DNA from: Gammaproteobacteria bacterium
Lineage (GTDB): Bacteria > Pseudomonadota > Gammaproteobacteria > SZUA-229
DNA length: 64,000 nt
Direction of reading: 5' to 3'
Assembly (NCBI GenBank): GCA_026195895.1
Contig: JAPHRO010000014.1
Location: 1-64,000 of the forward strand
Below are positions 13,304 through 26,692 of the stretch, in pieces. Within the stretch, counting starts at the first letter, position 1. Each line of letters opens with the position of its first letter. Position numbers and translations under genes: made by a program. Under the pieces are notes generated by a model. It was not told where the DNA came from. It ran no database searches and saw nothing but the letters and a program-made list of their open reading frames with translations.

Positions 13304-14980
13304 CTATTGTTGACCGTGTTCATTCTCTTCAGCGTCCGGCTGTATCTTTCCAGGTTCTTTAGGCAAATACTTTTGATAGTCTGCCAGATCACCCATAAGA
13401 CTTGCATGTCGTACAACGACCGGACGGATGAAAATAACGAGTTCTGATTTTTCCCTGAGATCGTCTTCGTACCTGAATAAGGCGCCAATGATTGGGATGT
13501 CAGAAAGAAATGGCACACCCGATGAAGTGTCATTCACGGTATCCTGCATTAAACCACCGATAATCGCTGTATCGCCACTATTCACCTGTAACAATGACTC
13601 TATTTCACGCACCTGAATAACCGGCACATTACTGGTTACATTGGCATTGGCAAATGCTGGATTAGGATCTTTAACAGTATCAATAATTCTTGAAATTGTT
13701 GGCCTGATATTAAGCGTCACCACATCGTGTTCATCAATATATGGTGTTACTGACATTACAAAACCGACCGGAACTGTTTTTATTTCGGTTTCAAATGTAG
13801 TTACAGATACACTATCCGCAACCGATGAATCCACGTCCATTTCGAAGTAAACAATATTATCTACAACTTTTAGAATCGCCGGCTGATTATTTAAGGCAAT
13901 AACTTTCGGACTGGATAATACCTGCACATCGCCAAACTGCTCTAAGGCACTTAAGGTGGCTGTCAGTTGATCACCACCAACATCGCCAGCCAGACTCAAC
14001 GTAGAAAAAGGCGCCTGACCAAGATTAGTACCAAGAAAATCAGAAGTAAAACTAATACCATCGGTTGGATCACTGGCAATCAGATTCCAGTCAATACCAG
14101 CCTGATAACGATCGCTTAGGTTTATTTCTGCAATGGTGGCCTCTATTAAAACCTGTCGTTTAGCATTACCCAGCACCAGGTCGACAAATCCCTGAATAAT
14201 TTCATGTTGTTTGTGGGTTGCCCTGACAACAATAATGCCGGATTCTTTATTAACAATTACATTTTTACTATCACTACCAGCATCCGTTGCTTCAGTTTCC
14301 GCCGTTGCATCTTCATTCAATATAGCAGCGATATTTTTTGCCAGCGTTTCCCAGAATTTATTATTAGAGGTATTGGTAACCTGAGTGCGCGAGCTATTAT
14401 TTTCGTCCTGACTACCACCACTACTTCCCTGCTCACCAATATTTCCCTGACCCGTTGAGCCCAGAGTTGTCGCTACACTAACCACACCGCTGGATTCTCT
14501 GGCCATATTAACGTAACTAATTTTATAAGTTCTCAGATAAGGCGCATCAGCACGAACCCGTAAGTTGTCTCTATCAAGTTCATAGCGAATATTTGTTTGC
14601 TTACTCAGACGATCAAGTATTTGAGGCAATGTCTGATCAATAGCATTCAGTGTAACGGTGCCTTCAATATCATTATGAATATCAAGGTTCAGCTTCGCAT
14701 CTCTGGCCATCGAAAAAAGCAGGTCTTTTACCGGTACATCACTGACTACGACCGTATAAGTTTCCAGGCGAGGTCTTTGTTTGGGTTCAGGCAACAGGGT
14801 CGTCTGTGTTAATGCAGCCGGAATAACAGCTTCCTCCTGCACCACGTCATCGCTAATATGACCTGCAGATTGTTCTGGTGGCCGCGTCGGTCCACAACTC
14901 ACTAACAGCAATACCAGGCTGCTTCCGATTAATATTTCGCGTGTTTGTTCAATTAGTTTCAATGTAATGCCCCGAGTCAT
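13304..14980 (-). CDS. mshL: Outer-membrane secretin MshL
   Basis: Secretin of 558 residues that forms the outer-membrane pore for the pilus. A lipoprotein signal ends at LLVSC with Cys29 as lipidation site. Then come an STN/N-domain (VKDLLFSMARDAKLNLDIHNDIEGTV) near 85-130, a Gly/Ser/Asn-rich loop around 175-205, and an N1-type domain (NKESGIIVVRAT..). The C-terminal secretin core follows, with VQVLSSPKVIALNNQPA and VNSGDTAIIGGLMQ. The start overlaps mshM by 4 nt. Relative to Vibrio MSHA loci the order of mshL and mshM is swapped. Confidence 0.9.
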   Translation of the reverse strand: MTRGITLKLIEQTREILIGSSLVLLLVSCGPTRPPEQSAGHISDDVVQEEAVIPAALTQTTLLPEPKQRPRLETYTVVVSDVPVKDLLFSMARDAKLNLDIHNDIEGTVTLNAIDQTLPQILDRLSKQTNIRYELDRDNLRVRADAPYLRTYKISYVNMARESSGVVSVATTLGSTGQGNIGEQGSSGGSQDENNSSRTQVTNTSNNKFWETLAKNIAAILNEDATAETEATDAGSDSKNVIVNKESGIIVVRATHKQHEIIQGFVDLVLGNAKRQVLIEATIAEINLSDRYQAGIDWNLIASDPTDGISFTSDFLGTNLGQAPFSTLSLAGDVGGDQLTATLSALEQFGDVQVLSSPKVIALNNQPAILKVVDNIVYFEMDVDSSVADSVSVTTFETEIKTVPVGFVMSVTPYIDEHDVVTLNIRPTISRIIDTVKDPNPAFANANVTSNVPVIQVREIESLLQVNSGDTAIIGGLMQDTVNDTSSGVPFLSDIPIIGALFRYEDDLREKSELVIFIRPVVVRHASLMGDLADYQKYLPKEPGKIQPDAEENEHGQQ

Positions 14981-16383
14981 TGACCAGATACCATATTGTT
15001 GATTGACTGACTTTTTCTGATATCCGCCCTGATACCCTTGATTGTTCTCAAATAAGGACTACTTGCCTTAAGCTCACTGCTTAATTTCTGCAACTGCTGT
15101 ATGGCATCTTCCCTGTTTATGTAGTCGTTGTATAGCACACTAAATACCTTCTGCCCCTGTATGATGGCGTCATATACATAGACCTTATCCATATTCAGGG
15201 TTTTGCTCGCTTTTCGTAAATAGTCCTCTGCTTTATTAACGGCCCAGGCCTCCAGCAAAATAAGCTGAATAGTGTAATTACCAGCTTCCGCCTGTGGCAG
15301 CCATGCTTTAGTCATCGCCAGTTGTTGCTGTAAAAGCTGTTGTGCAGGCTCACTATTCTGGTTTGATTGATTGTTCTCTGCTACAGCTTCCACTGCTGCA
15401 GGCATTAATGTTGCTGGCTTTAATATTTCTGCGGTAGCCGCCGGCTTTATTGCTAATTCATCTGCACGCTCAACTACTGCATGCTGCTGCGGAATTAATG
15501 TTCCAGTCCAGACAGCTAATGCGACAACACAAACGGCTGCAATCGAATAACTCAGTGGTTTCCAGTTTTTTTCCTGATTGAAATCACTGTCTCTGGCAGC
15601 AATGTCAATATGCTTGGCAGCAACACCATGGCCGCCTTCGGAATACACGGCCAATAAGGCTTTATCGGCGAGAATATTTATGCGGCGCGTTAGCCCTTTG
15701 GATTTTCTTTCAATATTACTGGCCACTTTTTGCGAGAAAATATCCGGGCCTTTATAACCAACATGGCGCATGCGAAAATTTAGATATTCAAAAATGTCAC
15801 TTTTAGGAAACGGGTCGAGATAAAAACTATGGGTGATGCGTTCTTTTAATTGCCTGATACTGGTATCACGTAACTTTTCATCCAGTTCTGGCTGGCCAAA
15901 TAAAACCATTTGCAGCAGCTTGTGATCATTGGTTTCCAGATTACTTAGTAAACGAATTTCTTCCAGAGTCTCTAATGGCATGCTTTGCGCTTCTTCTACA
16001 AAAACAACCACCTGTTTATTATCGGCATGCTTTGCTAGCAAATAATTTTGTAATTGCTGCATGACCTCAAATTTGTTTGTATCACTAGATATATCAAGTT
16101 TTAATTCAAAAGCGATAACATGCAATATATTTTCTGGTGACAAACTGGGATTTGCTATATAAACAACTTCAATATTATCTGGCAATTCCATCTCAAGCAT
16201 GCGGCATAACATTGTCTTGCCGCTACCAACTTCGCCTACAACCTTGATGATTCCCTCACCAGAAACTATTGCATACTTCAACGCTTCCAGTGCAGCACCA
16301 CGTTTACTGCCTGTATAAAATAAACTTGTGTCAGGCGTAATTTTAAATGGCGATCTCTTGAGACCAAAATGCTCTAGGTACAT
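14977..16383 (-). CDS. mshM: AAA ATPase MshM with C-terminal SPOR-like domain
   Basis: ExeA-type AAA ATPase of 468 residues. MYLEHFGLKRSPFKITPD is the family N-terminus, followed by Walker A GEVGSGKT (about residues 45-52), Walker B VVVFVEEAQ (about 125-133), and one membrane helix near 275-293. A periplasmic Ala/Gln-rich linker follows. The last 80 or so residues (GNYTIQLILLEAWAVNKAEDYL... to LRTIKGIRADI) have the layout of a SPOR peptidoglycan-binding domain. ExeA family members couple ATP hydrolysis in the cytoplasm to peptidoglycan remodelling for secretin assembly. It follows the regulator gene by 24 nt. Confidence 0.85.
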   Translation of the reverse strand: MYLEHFGLKRSPFKITPDTSLFYTGSKRGAALEALKYAIVSGEGIIKVVGEVGSGKTMLCRMLEMELPDNIEVVYIANPSLSPENILHVIAFELKLDISSDTNKFEVMQQLQNYLLAKHADNKQVVVFVEEAQSMPLETLEEIRLLSNLETNDHKLLQMVLFGQPELDEKLRDTSIRQLKERITHSFYLDPFPKSDIFEYLNFRMRHVGYKGPDIFSQKVASNIERKSKGLTRRINILADKALLAVYSEGGHGVAAKHIDIAARDSDFNQEKNWKPLSYSIAAVCVVALAVWTGTLIPQQHAVVERADELAIKPAATAEILKPATLMPAAVEAVAENNQSNQNSEPAQQLLQQQLAMTKAWLPQAEAGNYTIQLILLEAWAVNKAEDYLRKASKTLNMDKVYVYDAIIQGQKVFSVLYNDYINREDAIQQLQKLSSELKASSPYLRTIKGIRADIRKSQSINNMVSGQ

Positions 16384-16407
16384 AGTTTTACCCGTTATGA
16401 ATTAATG

Positions 16408-17847
16408 TCATTTTTTCTGCATCCTGCTATACAAAGTCGTCCTGTTTACATGCAATGCTTTGGCAACCTTGCTTAAATTCCCATCATAAATTTCCATCGC
16501 AAGTTCGATGTAATGATTTTCAAGATCTCGAATAGCCTGATCTAAATAGACTTCACCCGCTTGCATTTGTTGCTTTAACACTTCATCACTTAAAATATTT
16601 GATGTATTTTTTTGTTCATTCACAGCGTCGCTACTAACAAATGCATCCAGTTCTAGTTCAGCCTGTAATTGTTTTCGAGAAACCATCGCACCAGGATATT
16701 TAGTGCCAAGACGGATAACAATATTACGTAGTTCTCGTACATTGCCAGGAAAACCATAATTCACCCAGAGCTCTCGGGCAGACTCATCAAGCTCTACCGA
16801 CAAAATCGATTCTGCATAAAATTTTCTGAAGTGATCAAACAGTAACAGACTATCTCGACCACGATCACGTAAACCAGGCACCTGTATTTTTAAAATACTC
16901 AACCGATGAAATAAATCCGAACGAAAAGCTGATGCTCTGACCTCATCGGCAAGGGTTTTGTTGGTTGCGGCAATTATCCTGGCTTTCGATGTCAGGCATT
17001 GAGTATCACCCACTCGATAGTATTCGCCACTCTCCAGCACTCGGAGCAATTTGGCCTGCAGGTCATAGGCGATTTCACCAATCTCATCGAGGAACAAAGT
17101 GCCTTCCCCTGCCTGCTGGAAAAATCCTTTATGCTCGCGGGTCGCGCCAGTAAACGCACCTTTGGTATGGCCAAACAATTGCGCCTCCAGTAATTCAGGG
17201 GCAATCGCCGCACAGTTGATAACCATATAGGGCTGCTGGCTACGCGAACTTTGCTGATGCAGTGCTTTGGCAATCAGTTCTTTTCCAGTCCCCGATTCCC
17301 CCTCAATCAGCACTGGAAAAATTGAATTACTAAACTGATCAATCTGCTGCCGCAATACCTGCATCGACGCACTTTCGCCAATAATGGCGGCATCGGTATT
17401 TTTCTGTTCCTGCTTTTTTTCCACCTGCTGTAACATCAACTGATGCTGCAACCGCGTTTGTAATAATGCTGGCTCGGCGGGCTTGGGAATAAAATCGACG
17501 GCGCCTAGCGTCAGCGCATGCTGTATGTTGGCCTCTTCGCTTTGACCAGACAGCACCATGATTTTCATTTGAGGATCATGGGCCAGCAAATCTTCGATCA
17601 GAGCAAAGCCTTCGTCAGGACTGTGCGGTGATGGTGGCAAGCCCAGATCAACCAGCGCCAGTTGCGGCACCTGATCAAGGGCTGCCAGTACAGCACGCGC
17701 CTGGATGCGGGATTCTGCGATATGAACCTGGTAATTTTTTTTAAGTATAAAACCCAGGCTTTCAGAAATCAGCGGATCATCATCGATGAGCAATAACACC
17801 GGCTTTTCCACGCTATGATCTGGGGCATGTGAAAGCGGTTCGCTCAT
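16408..17847 (-). CDS. Sigma-54-dependent response regulator of the pilus locus (PrsR/PilR-like)
   Basis: NtrC-family response regulator of 479 residues. The receiver has Asp22-24 in the acidic pocket, Asp67 as phosphorylation site within VDLGLPP, and the LSG and PKP motifs. The AAA+ domain has Walker A GESGTGKE and an intact GAFTGA loop, and the protein ends in a Fis-type helix-turn-helix (LSKVAKALHVNRTTLYSRM). The DLGLPPxPxxPDEG stretch after the phospho-Asp is typical of PrsR-type regulators. It is the first gene of the minus-strand pilus cluster. Likely target: the sigma-54 promoter at 1733-1748. Likely partner: the kinase at 1949-3637, about 13 kb away on the other strand. Both pairings are inferences. 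Confidence 0.88.
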   Translation of the reverse strand: MSEPLSHAPDHSVEKPVLLLIDDDPLISESLGFILKKNYQVHIAESRIQARAVLAALDQVPQLALVDLGLPPSPHSPDEGFALIEDLLAHDPQMKIMVLSGQSEEANIQHALTLGAVDFIPKPAEPALLQTRLQHQLMLQQVEKKQEQKNTDAAIIGESASMQVLRQQIDQFSNSIFPVLIEGESGTGKELIAKALHQQSSRSQQPYMVINCAAIAPELLEAQLFGHTKGAFTGATREHKGFFQQAGEGTLFLDEIGEIAYDLQAKLLRVLESGEYYRVGDTQCLTSKARIIAATNKTLADEVRASAFRSDLFHRLSILKIQVPGLRDRGRDSLLLFDHFRKFYAESILSVELDESARELWVNYGFPGNVRELRNIVIRLGTKYPGAMVSRKQLQAELELDAFVSSDAVNEQKNTSNILSDEVLKQQMQAGEVYLDQAIRDLENHYIELAMEIYDGNLSKVAKALHVNRTTLYSRMQKK

Positions 17848-17879
17848 TGAATCAGCACCTAATATAAATGAATAAATAT

Positions 17880-17910
17880 ACTATTTTTTAGTCCGAAAGC
17901 ACTAAATAGT
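17880..17910. promoter_or_regulatory. Inverted repeat in the divergent trmL / pilus-regulator region
   Basis: ACTATTT at 17880-17886 and AAATAGT at 17904-17910 form a perfect 7-bp inverted repeat with a 17-nt spacer. It lies 33-63 nt upstream of the regulator ATG. It could be an operator for the pilus cluster or chance in AT-rich DNA. No sigma-54 consensus is present in this 143-nt gap. Confidence 0.3.
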
Positions 17911-17990
17911 CAATAATTACTGGACATATCTAAAAAATGGATAAAGAATAACTCCTAACCCACTGATAATCAATGAAATTAATATCTTAA

Positions 17991-18455
17991 ATGTTCCAAA
18001 TTATTTTATACCAGCCGGAAATCCCACCCAATACGGGGAACATAATCCGACTCTGCGCCAATACCGGCTGCAAACTCCATTTAATCCACCCGCTGGGTTT
18101 TGAGCTGGACGACAAACGGCTACGCCGTGCGGGTCTCGACTATAGCGAATTTGCCACCGTAACTAGCCATGACTCTATCGAGTCCTGCCTGGCGAAAATT
18201 CGGCCAAATCGGTTATTTGCCTGTTCTACCAAAGGCAAAAAAACGCATAGCGATATCCGATATGAGAAAGACGATGCTTTTATCTTTGGCCCGGAAACCC
18301 GAGGATTACCGGAAAACTACCTGGCCAGCCTGCCTGCGGAACAGATCATCCGCATTCCCATGCTGAAAAATAGCCGTAGTATGAATTTGTCCAATTCTGT
18401 TGCAGTGATTGTGTATGAAGCCTGGCGGCAATTAGATTATGCCGGTAGCGGTTAA
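17991..18455 (+). CDS. trmL: tRNA (cytidine(34)-2'-O)-methyltransferase TrmL
   Basis: SPOUT-class methylase of 154 residues that 2'-O-methylates the wobble base of leucine tRNAs. [26 protein letters not shown] is the family start. The knotted SAM site is formed by FGPETRGLP and [22 protein letters not shown]. No clear ribosome site precedes the ATG. It converges with gpsA with only 3 nt between the stop codons, and no terminator is visible. In Pseudomonas the same gene lies beside secB, so this is part of a conserved block. Confidence 0.92.
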
Positions 18456-18458
18456 CGA

Positions 18459-19475
18459 TTATTCGGCTTTTGATTCTCGGCCCAACAGAGCATCTACGGC
18501 GGCTTTGGGTGATTCACCCTCATACAGAACTCGATAGGTTTGTTCAATAATGGGCATATCCACCCGGTATTTCTGTGCCAGTTGCCAGGCTTCTTTGGCC
18601 GTTTTCACACCCTCAACCGCCTGGCCAATCTGGTCTCGGGCCTGCTCAATAGACAGGCCTTCTGCCAGCTTGAGTCCCATACGTCGATTTCTCGACTGAT
18701 TATCGGTACAGGTCAACACCAGGTCTCCAAGACCCGCAAGTCCCATGAAAGTTTCGGTGTGGGCGCCCATGGCATGACCCAGGCGCATAATTTCTGCCAG
18801 ACCACGAGTAATAAGCGCTGCCCGTGTATTGGCGCCGAAACCCAGACCATCGGCAATACCAGCGGCAATTGCCAGCACATTTTTCAGTGAACCACCCAGC
18901 TCGACACCTGTCATGTCATCACTGGTATAGGCCCTGAAACTGCCATGATGTAAAAACTCCACCATTTCCGCCGCCAGCTGTTTTGAACTGGCCGCCACGG
19001 TAATAGCGGTGGGCAATCCTTGCGCCAGCTCTTTGGCAAAAGTGGGTCCCGAAATCACGGCGGTGGCCTTACATTCGGGCAATTCTTCAGCAATGATCTG
19101 ATGCATCTGTTCGTTAGTGCCTTCCTCCAGACCCTTGGTTGCCCAGACAATATGATGATCGCTGCGGATAAAAGGCCTGGCGGATTGTACAAAACTGCGA
19201 AAGGCATGACTGGGCACAACTATCAACAGGGTCGTTGCCTGATTAATCGCTGTCTGTAAATTCTCACAGAGCTTCAGTGAATCCGGAAAAACCACCCCCG
19301 GCATATAGACTGCATTGCAGCGATCCTGCTGCATTTGCTTTACATGATCCGGATTATGATCCCACATGCATATATCAAAATTGGCACCGGAATCATTTGC
19401 CCTGGCAATATGAATGGCCAGAGCCGTGCCCCAGGAACCGGCACCCAGTACCGCTATGCTCCTGGAGTCAGGCAT
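18459..19475 (-). CDS. gpsA: Glycerol-3-phosphate dehydrogenase [NAD(P)+]
   Basis: Biosynthetic dehydrogenase of 338 residues that reduces dihydroxyacetone phosphate to sn-glycerol-3-phosphate for phospholipids. The NAD(P)-binding motif GAGSWGTALA is at residues 11-20. The catalytic region KNVLAIAAGIADGLGFGANTRAALITRGLAE and GLAGLGDLVLTC are intact. Its ATG touches the end of secB (shared base 19475), so the two are coupled, as in many gammaproteobacteria. Confidence 0.95.
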   Translation of the reverse strand: MPDSRSIAVLGAGSWGTALAIHIARANDSGANFDICMWDHNPDHVKQMQQDRCNAVYMPGVVFPDSLKLCENLQTAINQATTLLIVVPSHAFRSFVQSARPFIRSDHHIVWATKGLEEGTNEQMHQIIAEELPECKATAVISGPTFAKELAQGLPTAITVAASSKQLAAEMVEFLHHGSFRAYTSDDMTGVELGGSLKNVLAIAAGIADGLGFGANTRAALITRGLAEIMRLGHAMGAHTETFMGLAGLGDLVLTCTDNQSRNRRMGLKLAEGLSIEQARDQIGQAVEGVKTAKEAWQLAQKYRVDMPIIEQTYRVLYEGESPKAAVDALLGRESKAE

Positions 19476-19945
19476 TAATGCGCGGTCTCAGCGGCGGATT
19501 CACCCTGCGCCTGTTGCTGCTGGTGCTGCATATATAAGGCATTGAAGTTAACCGGCGACAACAATAACTGTGGGAATCCACCTTTGGCAACCAGGTCGGC
19601 AATGGCTTCACGGGCAAAAGGAAACAGCACTTCTGGGCAATAAGCACCCAGCATGCCGCCCAACTGCTCCTGTGGAAAACCTGACATCTGAAACACACCG
19701 GCCTGTTTCACTTCTACCAGAAACGCGGTATTTTCCTGCTGTTTGGCTGTTACGGTGACGGTTAAAATCACTTCATGTATGCCATCAGACAATGACTTGC
19801 CTTCCGTATTCAACTGCACATTCACTTCTGGCTGCCATTGACCATCGGAAAACACACCTGGCGCATTGGGTGATTCAAATGAAACATCTTTTAAATAAAT
19901 TTTCTGGATCGCAAACTGTTGCTGATTATTTTGTTCTTCACTCAT
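19475..19945 (-). CDS. secB: Protein-export chaperone SecB
   Basis: Tetrameric cytoplasmic chaperone of 156 residues that holds precursor proteins unfolded and hands them to SecA. It has the family core QKIYLKDVSFESPNAP near residue 13, LTVTVTAKQ and YCPEVLFPFAREAIADLVAKGGFPQLLL. It lies in a run of minus-strand genes (rhodanese, grxC, trxC, secB, gpsA); the gap to trxC is 101 nt. Confidence 0.95.
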   Translation of the reverse strand: MSEEQNNQQQFAIQKIYLKDVSFESPNAPGVFSDGQWQPEVNVQLNTEGKSLSDGIHEVILTVTVTAKQQENTAFLVEVKQAGVFQMSGFPQEQLGGMLGAYCPEVLFPFAREAIADLVAKGGFPQLLLSPVNFNALYMQHQQQQAQGESAAETAH

Positions 19946-20046
19946 GGTATTGCCTATAAAAATTAAAAAATATAAAGCTAAGGGATTATCGAAAGAATTG
20001 CTTTGGCAGAATAATGATTTTCAACCGCTGATCTTGGACCCTGATT

Positions 20047-20472
20047 CTAAATATTCTGATTAATCCAGGCCAGCAAGCTATTCTGATCCAGGGCACCAGA
20101 CATGCGGGCCACTTCCCTGGCTCCGGAGAATACCACTAAAGTCGGTATGCTGCGAATCCCGTAGCGCGCTGATAAACCTTGCTCGGTTTCTGTATTGACC
20201 TTGAGTAAACGCGCGCGGGGCTCAATCAGGCCCGCCGCTTTTTCGAAGGCGGGAGCCATCATCTTACAGGGGCCACACCAGGACGCCCAGAAATCAACCA
20301 CCAGCGGAATTTCACTTTTGAATAACTGGCGTTCAAACTGGCTTTGATTGACGGATAGCGCTGAGGCTGTGAATAATGGTTTATGACATTTACCGCAGTT
20401 TGCGGGGGCAACATTACGTTCGGCGGGGAGACGATTGATAGCTGCGCAATGCGGACAGACTACCTGGCTCAT
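20047..20472 (-). CDS. trxC: Thioredoxin 2 (zinc-finger thioredoxin TrxC)
   Basis: Thioredoxin of 141 residues with the extra N-terminal zinc finger of TrxC (CPHC near residues 5-8 and CGKC near 26-29). The active site WCGPC lies at about 65-69 and the cis-Pro loop is IRSIPTLVVF. TrxC enzymes reduce disulfides and in enterics belong to the oxidative-stress response. The gene starts 2 nt after grxC. The Pseudomonas secB-grx-rhodanese block does not include trxC as far as I recall, so this may be an insertion adding redox capacity. Confidence 0.92.
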   Translation of the reverse strand: MSQVVCPHCAAINRLPAERNVAPANCGKCHKPLFTASALSVNQSQFERQLFKSEIPLVVDFWASWCGPCKMMAPAFEKAAGLIEPRARLLKVNTETEQGLSARYGIRSIPTLVVFSGAREVARMSGALDQNSLLAWINQNI

Positions 20473-20474
20473 GG

Positions 20475-20735
20475 TCAGCCCTCCAGCATAGGGTCAAGAC
20501 CGCCCTGTTTATCCAGGGCGGACAGATCATCAAAACCACCCACATGATGATCACCGATAAATATCTGCGGCACCGAGGTGCGACCGCTTTTACTTTCCAT
20601 TTCTTCCCGATAGGCGTCGTCATCGCCGACATTAATAAGCGTGTATTCGACGCCCTTACCGTCCAGTAACTGCTGCGCCCAGGAACAGTAGGGACAAAAA
20701 GGAGAGTAATAAACCGTGATATCTGACTGGGACAT
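20475..20735 (-). CDS. grxC: Glutaredoxin 3
   Basis: Glutaredoxin of 86 residues with the dithiol active site CPYC (SPFCPYCSWAQQLL, Cys14 and Cys17), the TSVPQIFIGDHHVGG cis-Pro/glutathione loop and the DDLSALDKQGGLDPML end typical of GrxC. It uses glutathione to reduce mixed disulfides. It lies 18 nt after the rhodanese gene and 2 nt before trxC. Confidence 0.93.
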   Translation of the reverse strand: MSQSDITVYYSPFCPYCSWAQQLLDGKGVEYTLINVGDDDAYREEMESKSGRTSVPQIFIGDHHVGGFDDLSALDKQGGLDPMLEG

Positions 20736-20753
20736 AAAACAATAATCTATCTG

Positions 20754-21179
20754 TTATTTCCTGGTTAATGGCAAATTGGCACTGGTCCAGGCCATAACGC
20801 CACCGGACATATTATGCACGTTTTCAAAACCGGCTTTTTTTAGCAGTTTGCAGGCATAGTTGGAACGACTGCCGGAACGACAATAGGTGAGTACCTGCCT
20901 GTTTTTATATTTATCCAGCTCACCGATACGCTTTTTTAGTGCCGACATGGGGATATGTACAGATTCCTTGATATGACCGGTGGTATATTCATTGCCTTCG
21001 CGCACATCCAGCACCACCGTCTCATGGTCATTCATAAAACGAACCGCATCAACTACATTTAGCTGATTAACGCCACTCAGCTTGCTATCAAGCTCCATTT
21101 TAACAATCATTATCAGCACAACCATCAGTGCGCCAAACAACAGCAGATGATTGCCAGCAAATTCAACTATCTGAGACAT
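20754..21179 (-). CDS. Membrane-anchored rhodanese-like sulfurtransferase
   Basis: Single-domain rhodanese of 141 residues with one N-terminal membrane helix (about 9-27). The catalytic loop is CRSGSRS with the active Cys near residue 99 (TYCRSGSRSNYACKLL); the VVLDVRE and GGVMAW motifs are present. It would carry a persulfide and transfer sulfane sulfur at the membrane. It is first in the rhodanese-grxC-trxC run, 123 nt downstream of the ArsR-family gene, which may control it. Confidence 0.88.
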   Translation of the reverse strand: MSQIVEFAGNHLLLFGALMVVLIMIVKMELDSKLSGVNQLNVVDAVRFMNDHETVVLDVREGNEYTTGHIKESVHIPMSALKKRIGELDKYKNRQVLTYCRSGSRSNYACKLLKKAGFENVHNMSGGVMAWTSANLPLTRK

Positions 21180-21212
21180 GTATTAATCCTGAAAATTAGA
21201 ATCCAAACAATA

Positions 21213-21239
21213 AGCCAGCACCCTGCTCAGGCACTGGCT
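21213..21239 (-). other. Hairpin in the arsR-rhodanese spacer
   Basis: AGCCAG (21213-21218) pairs with CTGGCT (21234-21239), with two further inner C-G pairs. It lies 34-60 nt before the rhodanese ATG. There is no T-run after it on the minus strand, so it is not a standard terminator; it could be a leader structure or a weak attenuator. Confidence 0.35.
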
Positions 21240-21302
21240 CGAATATAAACAACCACTTTGACATGACCTGTTCTGGCATCGGGCATCGCCCAATGGGGCC
21301 GA

Positions 21303-21635
21303 TTATTCTTCCGAACCGCCCTGTGAACAGAATACTTCCTGCATCATGCTAATCAAACGTAGTGTACGTGCATCACCCACCCGGTAATAAACACGATTAG
21401 CATCTTTACGTGATGCCAGAATGCCTTTATCGCGTAAAATAGCCAGATGCTGAGAAATATTACTTTGAGATGTGCCCACACTATCTACAATATCCTGTAC
21501 ACTAATTTCCTGATCTCTTAAAGTACAAAGGATTTTTAAACGTAGCGGATGAGACATGGCTTTAAGAGACCGAGAAGCACGATCGATATCTTCTTCACGG
21601 GTCATCAAGTGCGTGTCTTCAATATTTACAACCAT
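21303..21635 (-). CDS. ArsR-family repressor, SqrR/BigR-like persulfide sensor
   Basis: Winged-helix ArsR/SmtB repressor of 110 residues. The DNA-reading helix is VGTSQSNISQHLAILRDKGIL and the wing is VYYRVGD. There are only two cysteines, Cys37 (KILCTL) and Cys103 (EVFCSQ), 66 residues apart. That is the same spacing as Cys41/Cys107 of SqrR and Cys42/Cys108 of BigR, which form a polysulfide bridge and release DNA. The metal-binding CVC motif of ArsR is absent. The start has GGAAGG 7 nt upstream. The gene sits just before a rhodanese-glutaredoxin-thioredoxin run and is divergent from envC. Sensor function is inferred from the cysteine geometry and neighbours. Confidence 0.85.
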   Translation of the reverse strand: MVVNIEDTHLMTREEDIDRASRSLKAMSHPLRLKILCTLRDQEISVQDIVDSVGTSQSNISQHLAILRDKGILASRKDANRVYYRVGDARTLRLISMMQEVFCSQGGSEE

Positions 21636-21677
21636 TGGTTAACCTTCCAGCTGATTTGGTAAAGACTTTATATTAGT

Positions 21678-21704
21678 AAACTACCATAAAATAATACATA
21701 GTTT
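21678..21704. promoter_or_regulatory. Candidate arsR operator/promoter
   Basis: AAACTA (21678-21683) and TAGTTT (21699-21704) form a 6-bp inverted repeat in a very AT-rich 126-nt gap between arsR and envC. On the minus strand TAATAT/TATAAA hexamers next to it could serve as a -10. The repeat may be the site of autorepression. The arms are short, so this is tentative. Confidence 0.35.
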
Positions 21705-21761
21705 TTTTATGTTTTTTACAAATTTTTCACATTTTTTATAAATAAAATCGCGATATAAGAA

Positions 21762-22991
21762 ATGGCTTATAAACATTCCGACCAGGTGACGCATCACACT
21801 GCACTAAGCGCCCGCACCATAGCATGGCTCCGATCCGTTATTCTGCTACTAATGGTCAGCCCGGTAGTTCTGGCTACAGATCAGGCACCAGCTGACTATC
21901 AAATCAAACTTGAGCAGATCCGCGAAAAAATCACCCAGGTACTCAACCGTCTGAACGAGACTGAGAATAAACGCAGTAATGTGCGTTCTCAAATTCAGAG
22001 TCTTGAGCTTAAAATTGCCAAAACTTCCAAATCTTTACGGGAAACGCAGTTAAAACATAAAAAATCGACCAGAAAGCTGGCCGCTCTTAAAGACGAGCTT
22101 AAAAAACTAAAGCAAAAACTTCGCAACCAACGCGCCATTCTTGCAGACCAGATACGCTCAGCCTATGCCATGGGCCAACAAGCCCAGGTTAAACTGCTGC
22201 TGAACCAGCAGCAGCCCGATGAAATGGGACGGGCCATGGTCTATTACGACTACCTGAACCAGGCGCGTACTGAAGAAATTGGCGAGTACCTGCAAAGCAT
22301 AGAGAAAAAGCAGCAACTGGAAACCAGTATTGGTGAAACCGCTGCAGAGCTTGAACAACTGCTGGATAAAAGGCTTAAGCAAAAGAAAAGTCTATCTGGA
22401 CAGCGCATTAACCGTAAGCGGCTCCTGGCGAAATTAAGCCAGGACATCGACCATCAGCAAAATACCCTGACCGAATTAAAAGGTAGCCGTAATCGCATTG
22501 AGCAATTATTAATGTCACTGGGCGAGTTACTGGCAGATATTCCCAGTGCACCACTCGATCAAAAACCTTTTGGCCAGCTCAAGGGCAAGTTACCCTGGCC
22601 CATCAAAGGCAATTTTAATGCAAAGTTTGGAACATCTCGCAACCAGGGTGATCTGACCTGGAACGGTGTGATTATTTCATCTTCATACGGTACACCGGTT
22701 CGAGCCATCAGTCATGGTCGCGTTGCATTTGCCGACTGGTTACAGGGTTACGGTTTCATTACGATAATTGATCATAAAGATGGTTATATGAGTCTTTATG
22801 GTTATAACCAGGCACTTTACAAACAGGCCGGCGACTGGATCGAAGCCGGTGAAGTAATTGCAACCGTGGGAGATAGTGGTGGCCAGGCTGACAGTGGGCT
22901 GTATTTTGAAATACGGCATTTAGGCAAACCTATTAATCCAAACCGCTGGTGTTCCAGTAAAATTAAACATCTGGCAATGAAAGAAAACTAA
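21762..22991 (+). CDS. envC: Murein hydrolase activator EnvC
   Basis: Periplasmic division factor of 409 residues that activates amidases at the septum. The export signal is near residues 24-39 (SVILLLMVSPVVLA), a long coiled coil spans about 45-265, and a C-terminal LytM domain follows. The LytM domain is degenerate: the zinc-ligand H...D pair is replaced (WNGVIISS) and the HxH motif reads GLYFEIR. This is the expected state for a non-enzymatic activator. ctpA follows at 58 nt, the conserved order. Confidence 0.92.
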   Translation: MAYKHSDQVTHHTALSARTIAWLRSVILLLMVSPVVLATDQAPADYQIKLEQIREKITQVLNRLNETENKRSNVRSQIQSLELKIAKTSKSLRETQLKHKKSTRKLAALKDELKKLKQKLRNQRAILADQIRSAYAMGQQAQVKLLLNQQQPDEMGRAMVYYDYLNQARTEEIGEYLQSIEKKQQLETSIGETAAELEQLLDKRLKQKKSLSGQRINRKRLLAKLSQDIDHQQNTLTELKGSRNRIEQLLMSLGELLADIPSAPLDQKPFGQLKGKLPWPIKGNFNAKFGTSRNQGDLTWNGVIISSSYGTPVRAISHGRVAFADWLQGYGFITIIDHKDGYMSLYGYNQALYKQAGDWIEAGEVIATVGDSGGQADSGLYFEIRHLGKPINPNRWCSSKIKHLAMKEN

Positions 22992-23049
22992 ATCGCCTTA
23001 TCTATACTTAAACAAATAACTTTATAAAAATAATATTGCGGAGCAATAC

Positions 23050-24399
23050 ATGAACAAGATTTTTTCACCGGTAGTTATACACCTGATGGTTATATTTACC
23101 TTCACTGCCAGTTTTAATGCTCCAGTATTAGCTGAAACTCAACCGTCAAATACTCAACTGGAAAATAAACAGGGGCTACCATTAGAGGAGTTGCGCAACT
23201 TCTCCGATATATTCGCCCGTATAAAATCTGATTATGTAGAAGAAGTGGATGATAAAGAACTTCTAAACAACGCTATTCGAGGCATGCTATCTGGACTCGA
23301 TCCTCATTCGACCTATATGGATCCGGATGAATATAAGGAACTTAAAATTGGTACTTCCGGCCAGTTTGGCGGCCTGGGCATACAGGTAGGCATAGAAGAT
23401 GGCCTGGTAAAAGTCATTTCACCAATTGATGATACGCCAGCGTTTCGTGCCGGACTTAAAGCGGGTGATCTTATAGTACGCCTTGATGACAAACCGGTTA
23501 AAGGCATGTCGCTAAATGACGCAGTCAATATCATGCGTGGCAAACCAGGGACAACTATCGAATTGACTATTGTGCGAGAAGATGTGATTGACCCACTGGT
23601 TTTTAAAATTGAACGCGCCATTATAAAAGTTAAAAGCGTTAAAAGCCAAATGCTTGAAAATGATTATGCATATATACGCATTTCCACTTTCCAGTCCCAT
23701 ACATCACGCCATCTGACCGAAGCGCTGAACGATTTGAAAAAAGAAAATAAAAATCCGTTGAAAGGACTGGTGCTTGATTTAAGAAATAATCCCGGCGGCG
23801 TGTTGAATGCGGCAGCAGAAGTATCCGATACTTTTTTAGATAAAGGTTTAATTGTTTATACCAAAGGCCGAATTAAAAACTCCTATTTTGAATTCAAAGC
23901 AAAACCAGGTGATAAACTGGATGGCATACCTATGGTGGTACTGATTAATGAAGGCTCGGCCTCAGCATCAGAAATTGTGGCCGGTGCGCTACAGGATCAT
24001 AACCGCGCTGTTATCATGGGATCAAAAAGTTTTGGTAAAGGCTCAGTACAAACTATCCAGGAATTACGTAGTGGCGCTGCTGTAAAATTTACCACCGCCA
24101 GATATTTCACGCCTGCCGGTCGCTCTATACAGGCTGAAGGCATAATACCAGACATTGTGCTTGCCGATATGAAACTCACGGCTGTTAAAAGCAATGGTAT
24201 TAAACGCCTGAAAGAAGCAGATTTAAGCGGTCATATTAGTAACCCCAATGGCGTCAAAAGAAAGGGCAAAAATAAAAAAGCTACCGAAGCGTCACAAAAA
24301 AATGACGACCAGCTAACTGACGATTATCAGATCAAAGAAGCTTTAAACGTACTGAAAGGCCTTAATATATTTCATAAAAAACAGGCTAAAAAGGAATAA
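23050..24399 (+). CDS. ctpA: Carboxy-terminal processing protease CtpA (S41)
   Basis: Periplasmic PDZ protease of 449 residues. It has an N-terminal signal (residues 8-28), a PDZ domain around 95-175 (GLGIQVGIEDGLVKVISPIDDTPA) and the catalytic Ser in NEGSASASEIVAGAL. The catalytic Lys is in SKSFGKGSVQT. The last 60 residues form a basic Lys-rich tail. GGAG lies upstream of the ATG (GCGGAGCAATACATG). It is in the conserved envC-ctpA pair, probably one transcript. Confidence 0.93.
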   Translation: MNKIFSPVVIHLMVIFTFTASFNAPVLAETQPSNTQLENKQGLPLEELRNFSDIFARIKSDYVEEVDDKELLNNAIRGMLSGLDPHSTYMDPDEYKELKIGTSGQFGGLGIQVGIEDGLVKVISPIDDTPAFRAGLKAGDLIVRLDDKPVKGMSLNDAVNIMRGKPGTTIELTIVREDVIDPLVFKIERAIIKVKSVKSQMLENDYAYIRISTFQSHTSRHLTEALNDLKKENKNPLKGLVLDLRNNPGGVLNAAAEVSDTFLDKGLIVYTKGRIKNSYFEFKAKPGDKLDGIPMVVLINEGSASASEIVAGALQDHNRAVIMGSKSFGKGSVQTIQELRSGAAVKFTTARYFTPAGRSIQAEGIIPDIVLADMKLTAVKSNGIKRLKEADLSGHISNPNGVKRKGKNKKATEASQKNDDQLTDDYQIKEALNVLKGLNIFHKKQAKKE

Positions 24400-24451
24400 G
24401 TTTTAAATATCTATAAACACTGGCTTTAATAGTAGTTCTGAAGGAAACGTT

Positions 24452-25000
24452 ATGACAAAAGTACTCGTACCATTAGCTCAGGGCTGTGAAGAACTTGAAG
24501 CTATAACAATTACCGACCTGCTGGTTCGTGCTGGTATTTCAGTAACCACCGCAGGACTTGACGATCAACCCGTTAAAGCCTCACGTGGTGCAACACTCAT
24601 TCCCGATACAACAATCGATAAAGTCGTTGATAAAATTTTTGATATGATCGTATTGCCGGGCGGTTTACCCGGAGCGGATTATTTGCGCGATGATAGCCGA
24701 GTACAGGCCATACTTAAAAATCATGCTGCTAAAAATTGTTATATCGCTGCTGTTTGTGCGGCGCCCAAAGCACTGGCAAAAGCTGGATTGCTTGATAATA
24801 AAACCGCCACTGCTTACCCGGGCGTGCTGGAATCTTTGAATTTAACATCCACAAAAATAAAAAATTCAGCTATAGAAATAGATGGAAAAATCATCACCTC
24901 CAGGGGGCCAGGCACAGCTATGGATTTTGCCTTGACGCTTATCGAGCAACTTGAAGGCAAAAATAAAAGATCAGTTGTTGAGCAACAACTGGTTCGTTAA
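24452..25000 (+). CDS. yajL: DJ-1/PfpI family protein (YajL-like)
   Basis: Protein of 182 residues of the DJ-1 superfamily. It has the reactive Cys in IAAVCAAPKAL (about residue 107), the supporting Glu in GCEELEAIT (about residue 15), and VLPGGLPGA. YajL/DJ-1 proteins protect against oxidative and carbonyl stress as chaperones or glyoxalase-like enzymes; the exact activity is debated. The ribosome site AAGGAAACG is strong. The next gene starts 14 nt after its stop. Confidence 0.88.
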   Translation: MTKVLVPLAQGCEELEAITITDLLVRAGISVTTAGLDDQPVKASRGATLIPDTTIDKVVDKIFDMIVLPGGLPGADYLRDDSRVQAILKNHAAKNCYIAAVCAAPKALAKAGLLDNKTATAYPGVLESLNLTSTKIKNSAIEIDGKIITSRGPGTAMDFALTLIEQLEGKNKRSVVEQQLVR

Positions 25001-26479: not shown

Positions 26480-26692
26480 CTATTTCTCTAGCGCCTGTTC
26501 GGCTTCGGTTTTCATATTCAATTTTTTCATTAAAATTTTTGGTGGGCAGAACCCAGTAAAAGAACTTTGCAAACAGTTAAACCCCACAAAAAGCGTTACC
26601 CAGCTCCAGTAAGGATGATGAAACAGGGCCAGTAAAGAAGTAATCATTACCATGGAGCCACCCAGAGCAAATAGTGCACGTTCTACTGTCAT
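26480..26692 (-). CDS. DUF2892 small membrane protein (YgaP C-terminal-like)
   Basis: Membrane protein of 70 residues with two helices (about 6-25 and 29-45) and the SSFTGFCPPKILMKKLN motif that marks DUF2892. The same domain forms the membrane part of YgaP, where it is fused to a rhodanese. Here it stands alone, 61 nt downstream of glmU. A TAACAG/CTGTTA inverted repeat lies in that gap. The Cys-Pro motif and the family link suggest a sulfur or thiol role, but function is unknown. Confidence 0.75.
   Translation of the reverse strand: MTVERALFALGGSMVMITSLLALFHHPYWSWVTLFVGFNCLQSSFTGFCPPKILMKKLNMKTEAEQALEK

Follow-up and report, generated by a model that had tools for sequence, protein, structure and literature searches.

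A candidate persulfide-responsive ArsR-type repressor and a conserved promoter element at the head of a rhodanese-secB gene block in Gammaproteobacteria

An ArsR-type repressor gene (arsR) precedes a rhodanese-led gene block in the window, by which we mean the whole 64,000-nucleotide stretch of gammaproteobacterial DNA that was analysed. Its product carries a conserved cysteine pair placed as in characterised persulfide sensors, and its promoter is covered by a conserved 30-bp element. We consider it probable that the protein is a persulfide-responsive auto-repressor of the arsR-rhodanese operon, like that of E. coli ygaVP; sulfide might also control the secB block as a whole. The features of the locus are as follows.

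18459..19475, (-), gpsA
19475..19945, (-), secB
20047..20472, (-), trxC, thioredoxin 2 with a zinc ribbon, optional block member (NF008229 146.3 bits, cut-off 125)
20475..20735, (-), grxC, glutaredoxin 3, optional block member (TIGR02181 105.9 bits, cut-off 90)
20754..21179, (-), membrane-anchored, YibN-like rhodanese with one N-terminal hydrophobic segment and the active loop CRSGSR (Cys100)
21212..21240, (-), terminator-like hairpin and possible attenuator between arsR and the rhodanese gene; several close relatives have hairpins in the corresponding position
21303..21635, (-), arsR-type repressor ORF, 110 aa, with C37 in helix 2 and C103 at the end of helix 5
21669..21698, (-), conserved 30-bp promoter/operator-like element TGTATTATTTTATGGTAGTTTACTAATATA (40-bp profile match at 21665-21704)
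21762..22991, (+), envC, divergent from arsR; the common intergenic region contains the 30-bp element

The repressor and its cysteine pair

The only two cysteines among the 110 residues encoded by arsR are Cys37 and Cys103, separated by 66 residues. A preceding sequence-only reading had singled out this pair as spaced exactly as in SqrR and BigR, and the ORF and alignments confirm it: SqrR (C41/C107; PMC9995734) and sHdrR (C50/C116; PMC12423496) have a spacing of 66, and the alignments of BigR and HlyU to the arsR product are gap-free between both cysteines. The word 'exactly' does not extend to YgaV, whose cysteines C31/C98 are spaced by 67 (PMC9774250). The reported lack of a metal-binding CVC motif also holds, as no CxC motif was found in helix 3, and the helix-5 His/Asp ligands of metal sensors are likewise absent, both in the sequence and in the homologue column table.

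Homologues were drawn from relatives, a class-wide sample, GTDB contigs and more distant members, and the patterns used to fetch contigs (RSLKAMSH and E[VI]SVQDIV) contain no cysteine. In the alignment columns of 200 distinct homologues, which are related by phylogeny and so not independent, the sampled genomes covering many GTDB families, Cys37 occurs in 200/200 and Cys103 in 197/200, while the helix-5 positions 96, 99 and 100 are variable, unlike nearby Cys103. Both cysteines are therefore under selection and not there by chance. All three losses of Cys103 belong to a single genus (g183; L186, L230, L231), in which Cys37 is retained, Val occupies the Cys103 position and the rhodanese gene is more distant or missing; this genus apparently represents a natural loss of the cysteine switch.

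The window's own genome has a single arsR copy, the remaining two matches being 33-35% identical. A second ArsR-type protein in this genome (L002, G000:C26:11376-11627) is followed 292 nt on by a rhodanese match and is apparently an ArsR-rhodanese fusion with an open frame of 228 aa. An ArsR-like protein with a CVC motif (L003, G000:C58:6392-6592) is likely an arsenite or metal sensor.

Fold and family placement

The arsR product falls into the ArsR/SmtB superfamily, matching HTH_5 (Pfam) at 51.4 bits against a cut-off of 22. AlphaFold2, run with 32 homologues (mean pLDDT 78.6; one of five models confident), predicted helices at residues 13-26, 30-39, 46-53, 57-69 and 89-102 and a beta hairpin of strands 73-78 and 81-86, that is, an ArsR winged-helix fold. 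In this model Cys37 lies inside helix 30-39 and Cys103 immediately past helix 89-102; the finding that would have refuted the earlier reading, cysteines off the matching helices, did not arise. The conserved helix-2 and helix-5 cysteines that mark persulfide-sensing ArsR proteins (SSN cluster 4) are thus both present. Membership of that cluster is set at an identity of at least about 40% to its members, and the identity of the arsR product to BigR, HlyU, YgaV and SqrR is 37-40%, a range measured against five characterised members.

The top PDB sequence matches were BigR (3pqj, the best), HlyU, SqrR and YgaV, all of which share both cysteine columns in the printed alignments. Foldseek placed HlyU and BigR at the top, followed by NolR, SqrR and YgaV, with the metal-sensing CzrA and SmtB lower; the closest fold matches were the HlyU structures 4ooi, 4k2e and 3jth. 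With the BigR equivalog model NF040642 (NCBIfam) the protein scored 78.5 bits, below the cut-off of 155, and 32 scanned homologues match this model as relatives only. A tree sets the arsR family apart from the characterised references (99/98), long branches making its inner placement unsure. By these comparisons the arsR product belongs to a distinct subfamily that resembles persulfide sensors in anatomy.

Linkage of arsR to a rhodanese gene block

Among the 245 homologous loci with enough sequence, rhodanese was the next same-strand gene after arsR in 237 (median gap 82 nt), a co-localisation with sulfurtransferase/rhodanese genes by which persulfide-sensing ArsR proteins are recognised (PMC10509353). 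The pair is usually followed by secB and gpsA; in the opposite direction lie envC and a C-terminal processing protease. The membrane rhodanese, GrxC and TrxC that had been read from the sequence are confirmed at the window locus by the hydrophobic segment and CRSGSR loop, TIGR02181 and NF008229. Their inclusion in a conserved secB block needs qualification, however, as in a family-level sample of 59 loci the block contained rhodanese in 53, gpsA in 51, secB in 49, grxC in 33 and trxC in 18: rhodanese, secB and gpsA are near-constant partners of arsR, and grxC and trxC are optional. Linkage persists across many families, also in genomes of 1-1.1 Mb. At the window locus no metal transporter adjoins arsR.

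At exceptional loci arsR precedes unrelated genes, for guanylate kinase, triosephosphate isomerase/secG, a TolC-like protein, lpxB or lgt (neighbours named from their translations, not through a family search), and both cysteines are retained although no rhodanese lies close by. One family (f27; L181, L192) has the arsR homologue before a TolC-like outer-membrane protein gene in place of rhodanese. At 13/200 loci a YgaP-like (DUF2892) membrane ORF stands between arsR and the rhodanese gene, recalling E. coli ygaVP. A relative of the ORFs at these 13 loci is encoded in the window some 5 kb away from arsR (26480-26692, (-); PF11127, E 2e-10): a 70-aa YgaP-like membrane protein containing the segment FCPPKILMKK. 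The genome holds three such PF11127 genes. Also in the window (14977-17847, (-)), an ExeA-like AAA ATPase adjoins a sigma-54-type response regulator, judging by the look of the translations.

The catalytic Cys is present in 187/189 arsR-linked rhodaneses versus 27/31 from arsR-less genomes, and the loop Cys together with the last Arg in 145/189 versus 7/31, the control of 31 being small and phylogenetically uneven. In E. coli K-12, where the same block lacks arsR, YibN (L270:4585-5016) has Asp in the catalytic Cys position, a loop anomaly that has been reported (PMC12282094).

A conserved element at the arsR promoter

Motif discovery by expectation maximisation (EM) in 143 non-redundant upstream regions yielded a 30-bp element with the consensus TGTATTATTGTATAATGTTTTAnTAATATA and a log-likelihood of 2052, compared with 233 for shuffled sequences. 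The consensus has a -10-like TATAAT at columns 17-22 and conserved flanks, ATTATT upstream and T.ATA downstream; since it contains this hexamer, the element overlaps, and indeed covers, the arsR promoter. In the window's copy, TATGGT is the candidate -10 hexamer, and TATTA/TAATA form the outer arms. Confident copies occur, at full length, in about 74% of upstream regions, leaving about a quarter without one.

The element is specific to arsR. With a profile built without the window's own family, the top score on both strands of the 64-kb window was 26.5 bits, at 21665-21704(-), the next reaching 11.7; with a loose consensus, the arsR promoter site was the sole match in the window, and 100 shuffles gave none. 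Allowing up to two mismatches, ATTATTGTATAATGTTTTANTNATA was found in 30 of 370 genomes, once in each and always directly upstream of an arsR copy (as established by coordinate comparison with arsR homologues and by reading of the loci); no such strict match occurred in the arsR-less genomes among the 370. In 40 relatives, coordinates or promoter sequence suggest a link to arsR for 15/17 element matches but not for two (G042 and G011:C10). One of the 30 strict matches belongs to a second, displaced arsR paralogue of 59% identity that precedes an unrelated membrane protein gene (L201, G378:C40:6957-7398).

We regard the element as a candidate binding site of the arsR product. It is weakly dyad-symmetric (p about 0.08-0.13), and a clear palindrome was rejected as not significant. 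The SqrR box ATTC-N8-GAAT is absent, at up to one mismatch, from both 21636-21761 and 21180-21302. Two further candidate sites were discarded: the lone additional match in the same genome (three mismatches, G000:C29), near a glycosyltransferase-like and an unrelated ORF, was unpersuasive as a sign of other regulon members, and a site between the rhodanese gene and grxC (20716-20755(-), 11.7 bits) lies inside the control range.

The arsR-rhodanese gap

The 123-nt gap between arsR and the rhodanese gene had been proposed as a second binding region (21180-21302). This proposal was rejected, as the gap gave no profile match or other operator-like element and contains a terminator-like hairpin with 12 pairs at 21240-21212. 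Hairpins occur in the matching place in close relatives, some with T tracts, and other members of the window's family have hairpin-free gaps of 11-40 nt. No Rfam match was obtained in 17800-24600. For the family as a whole one would naturally read arsR and rhodanese as co-transcribed; in the window's own genome their joint transcription may be attenuated. The case for repressor control of grxC, trxC and secB is weaker than that for arsR-rhodanese, because of this hairpin and because grxC and trxC are optional.

Distribution and association with dsrA

At a presence cut-off of E <= 1e-18, the repressor was found in 194/370 sampled class members, about half of a broad gammaproteobacterial sample, six of the 194 being weak matches of around 40% identity. 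dsrA (TIGR02064) was detected in 124/370 genomes, among them the window's own (611 bits). The repressor is present in 119/124 dsrA-positive versus 75/246 dsrA-negative genomes, counts that ignore kinship, and with one genome per family in 47/48 versus 24/92. Within families the two do not always go together. As both traits are inherited in blocks, the relation is an association, not a dependence.

Proposed mechanism and alternatives

We infer that the arsR product senses persulfide. It would belong with the alpha2/alpha5-dithiol proteins (SqrR/BigR/HlyU/YgaV) and act as a dimeric winged-helix repressor that, when reduced, binds 21669-21698 over its own promoter and represses arsR and the rhodanese gene behind it. 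With a rise in cytoplasmic persulfide or polysulfide, sulfane sulfur would bridge Cys37 and Cys103 (as a tetrasulfide), and the bridged dimer would release the DNA, raising rhodanese. Readthrough would raise grxC and trxC, possibly secB-gpsA as well, and the induced proteins would carry sulfane sulfur and reduce persulfides.

The persulfide switch had already been suggested from the sequence, and as a reading by homology it is well supported by the cysteine pair, the relatives, the rhodanese and the element at 21669-21698, though its second site was lost. In favour of a persulfide-responsive auto-repressor we count cysteine conservation and helix placement, the matches to BigR, HlyU, SqrR and YgaV, rhodanese linkage and the retained rhodanese catalytic Cys, element specificity, the dsrA association, the YgaP-like ORF at 13 loci and the published chemistry of such sensors (PMC10509353, PMC9774250, PMC12423496, PMC9995734). 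Against it stand the 37-40% identity to these sensors, the separate tree position, the missing SqrR box, the weak dyad, the upstream regions that lack the element (about a quarter), homologues with both cysteines and no nearby rhodanese, a hairpin that may end transcription after arsR, and many arsR-carrying genomes without dsrA.

The same cysteines could instead close into a plain C37-C103 disulfide, as a switch for general disulfide or oxidative stress (H2O2, GSSG, HOCl) that is matched to GrxC/TrxC rather than to persulfide. The presence of grxC and trxC in the block and the 75 arsR-carrying genomes without dsrA fit such a switch, but it is rather unlikely given how often these two genes are missing where rhodanese is kept (33/59 and 18/59 versus 53/59), the strong dsrA association, and the relative HlyU, which reacts only with persulfides and is unreactive to H2O2 and GSSG (PMC10509353). 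That the protein is an ArsR/SmtB-type metal or metalloid sensor with two incidental cysteines is very improbable. Its best NCBIfam label is the generic 'metalloregulator ArsR/SmtB family', yet it has just two cysteines, no helix-3 CxC, no helix-5 His ligands and no adjoining metal transporter; metal sensors rank below persulfide sensors in sequence and fold comparisons, and a different ArsR-like protein of the genome (L003) does carry a CVC motif.

Two further alternatives concern the target and the element. The repressor may control its own gene only, the rhodanese-secB genes using their own promoters and the synteny being inherited gene order. The hairpins in the window and its close relatives and the arsR-less block of E. 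coli point this way; the hairpin-free gaps in the same family and linkage across many families, including the 1-1.1 Mb genomes, speak for joint transcription, and we take control of arsR only to be unlikely. It is distinctly unlikely that the element is merely a strong conserved sigma-70 promoter and no operator. Its TATAAT hexamer and a partial match upstream of rhodanese in one arsR-less genome (G103, L287) would agree with a promoter alone, but conservation extends to both sides of the -10, the profile finds no element at 30/31 arsR-less block loci, and the displaced paralogue in G378 keeps it. Our preferred reading builds on the observed gene, cysteines, conservation, linkage and specific element and on the predicted fold; binding of the element by the arsR product, repression, persulfide as the inducer and the reach of readthrough form its inferred part.

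In a wider reading, which we offer tentatively, the family would be an undescribed, widely conserved gammaproteobacterial subfamily of persulfide repressors that has an operator type to itself and essentially a single target in each genome. As a near-universal Dsr companion it would make a redox and protein-export block headed by the rhodanese respond to sulfane sulfur in the cytoplasm; genomes without it, E. coli among them, often have a linked rhodanese that no longer carries the full catalytic motif. In the literature searched, no paper was found on this regulator (an ArsR protein linked to secB, rhodanese and glutaredoxin). The sensor-rhodanese principle is already known, since a published network analysis shows that persulfide-sensing ArsR proteins co-localise with rhodaneses (PMC10509353); the subfamily, the element, the position at the secB block and the companionship with dsr appear undescribed in that literature. 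Sulfane-sulfur regulation is little known in gammaproteobacterial Dsr-type sulfur bacteria, and here it would involve one short operon with a candidate operator defined to its 30 bp and a pair of cysteines, all directly testable. A role for YibN, the conserved E. coli rhodanese whose function is unknown, is suggested too, since the catalytic loop is retained in those of its relatives that have the sensor. If readthrough holds, the possible tie of secB/gpsA to sulfur stress would be a new one.

Comparison with known systems

E. coli YgaP combines a rhodanese with a membrane domain of the YgaP type, whereas the rhodanese here is N-terminally anchored and lies within a yibN-grxC-secB-gpsA block. 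YgaV is an ArsR-type auto-repressor with a site over its own promoter, and sulfide relieves its repression (PMC9774250). The arsR product shares with YgaV-YgaP the helix-2 and helix-5 cysteines, the rhodanese partner (co-transcribed in the case of YgaV) and a promoter-overlapping site, here a candidate; it differs from YgaV in sequence (40% identity), operator and cysteine spacing (66 versus 67).

SqrR of Rhodobacter capsulatus has the same fold, cysteine pair and spacing, and controls a rhodanese among other genes (PMC9995734). Identity to SqrR is 40%, the SqrR box does not occur at the arsR promoter, and SqrR controls several genes, in contrast to essentially one operator-like site per genome here. 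In Xylella fastidiosa and Acinetobacter baumannii, BigR shares the cysteines and controls a sulfur-detoxifying operon, but the arsR product falls well short of the BigR equivalog cut-off (78.5 versus 155 bits), and the Xylella target is a PDO-rhodanese fusion, not a secB block (PMC9995734). HlyU of Vibrio provides the closest fold matches and the same dithiol pair, yet it activates a hemolysin gene and its targets are unrelated. Finally, the E. coli yibN-grxC-secB-gpsA-cysE block has an identical gene order and is likewise divergent from gpmM-envC, but it lacks arsR, and its YibN has Asp in place of the catalytic Cys.
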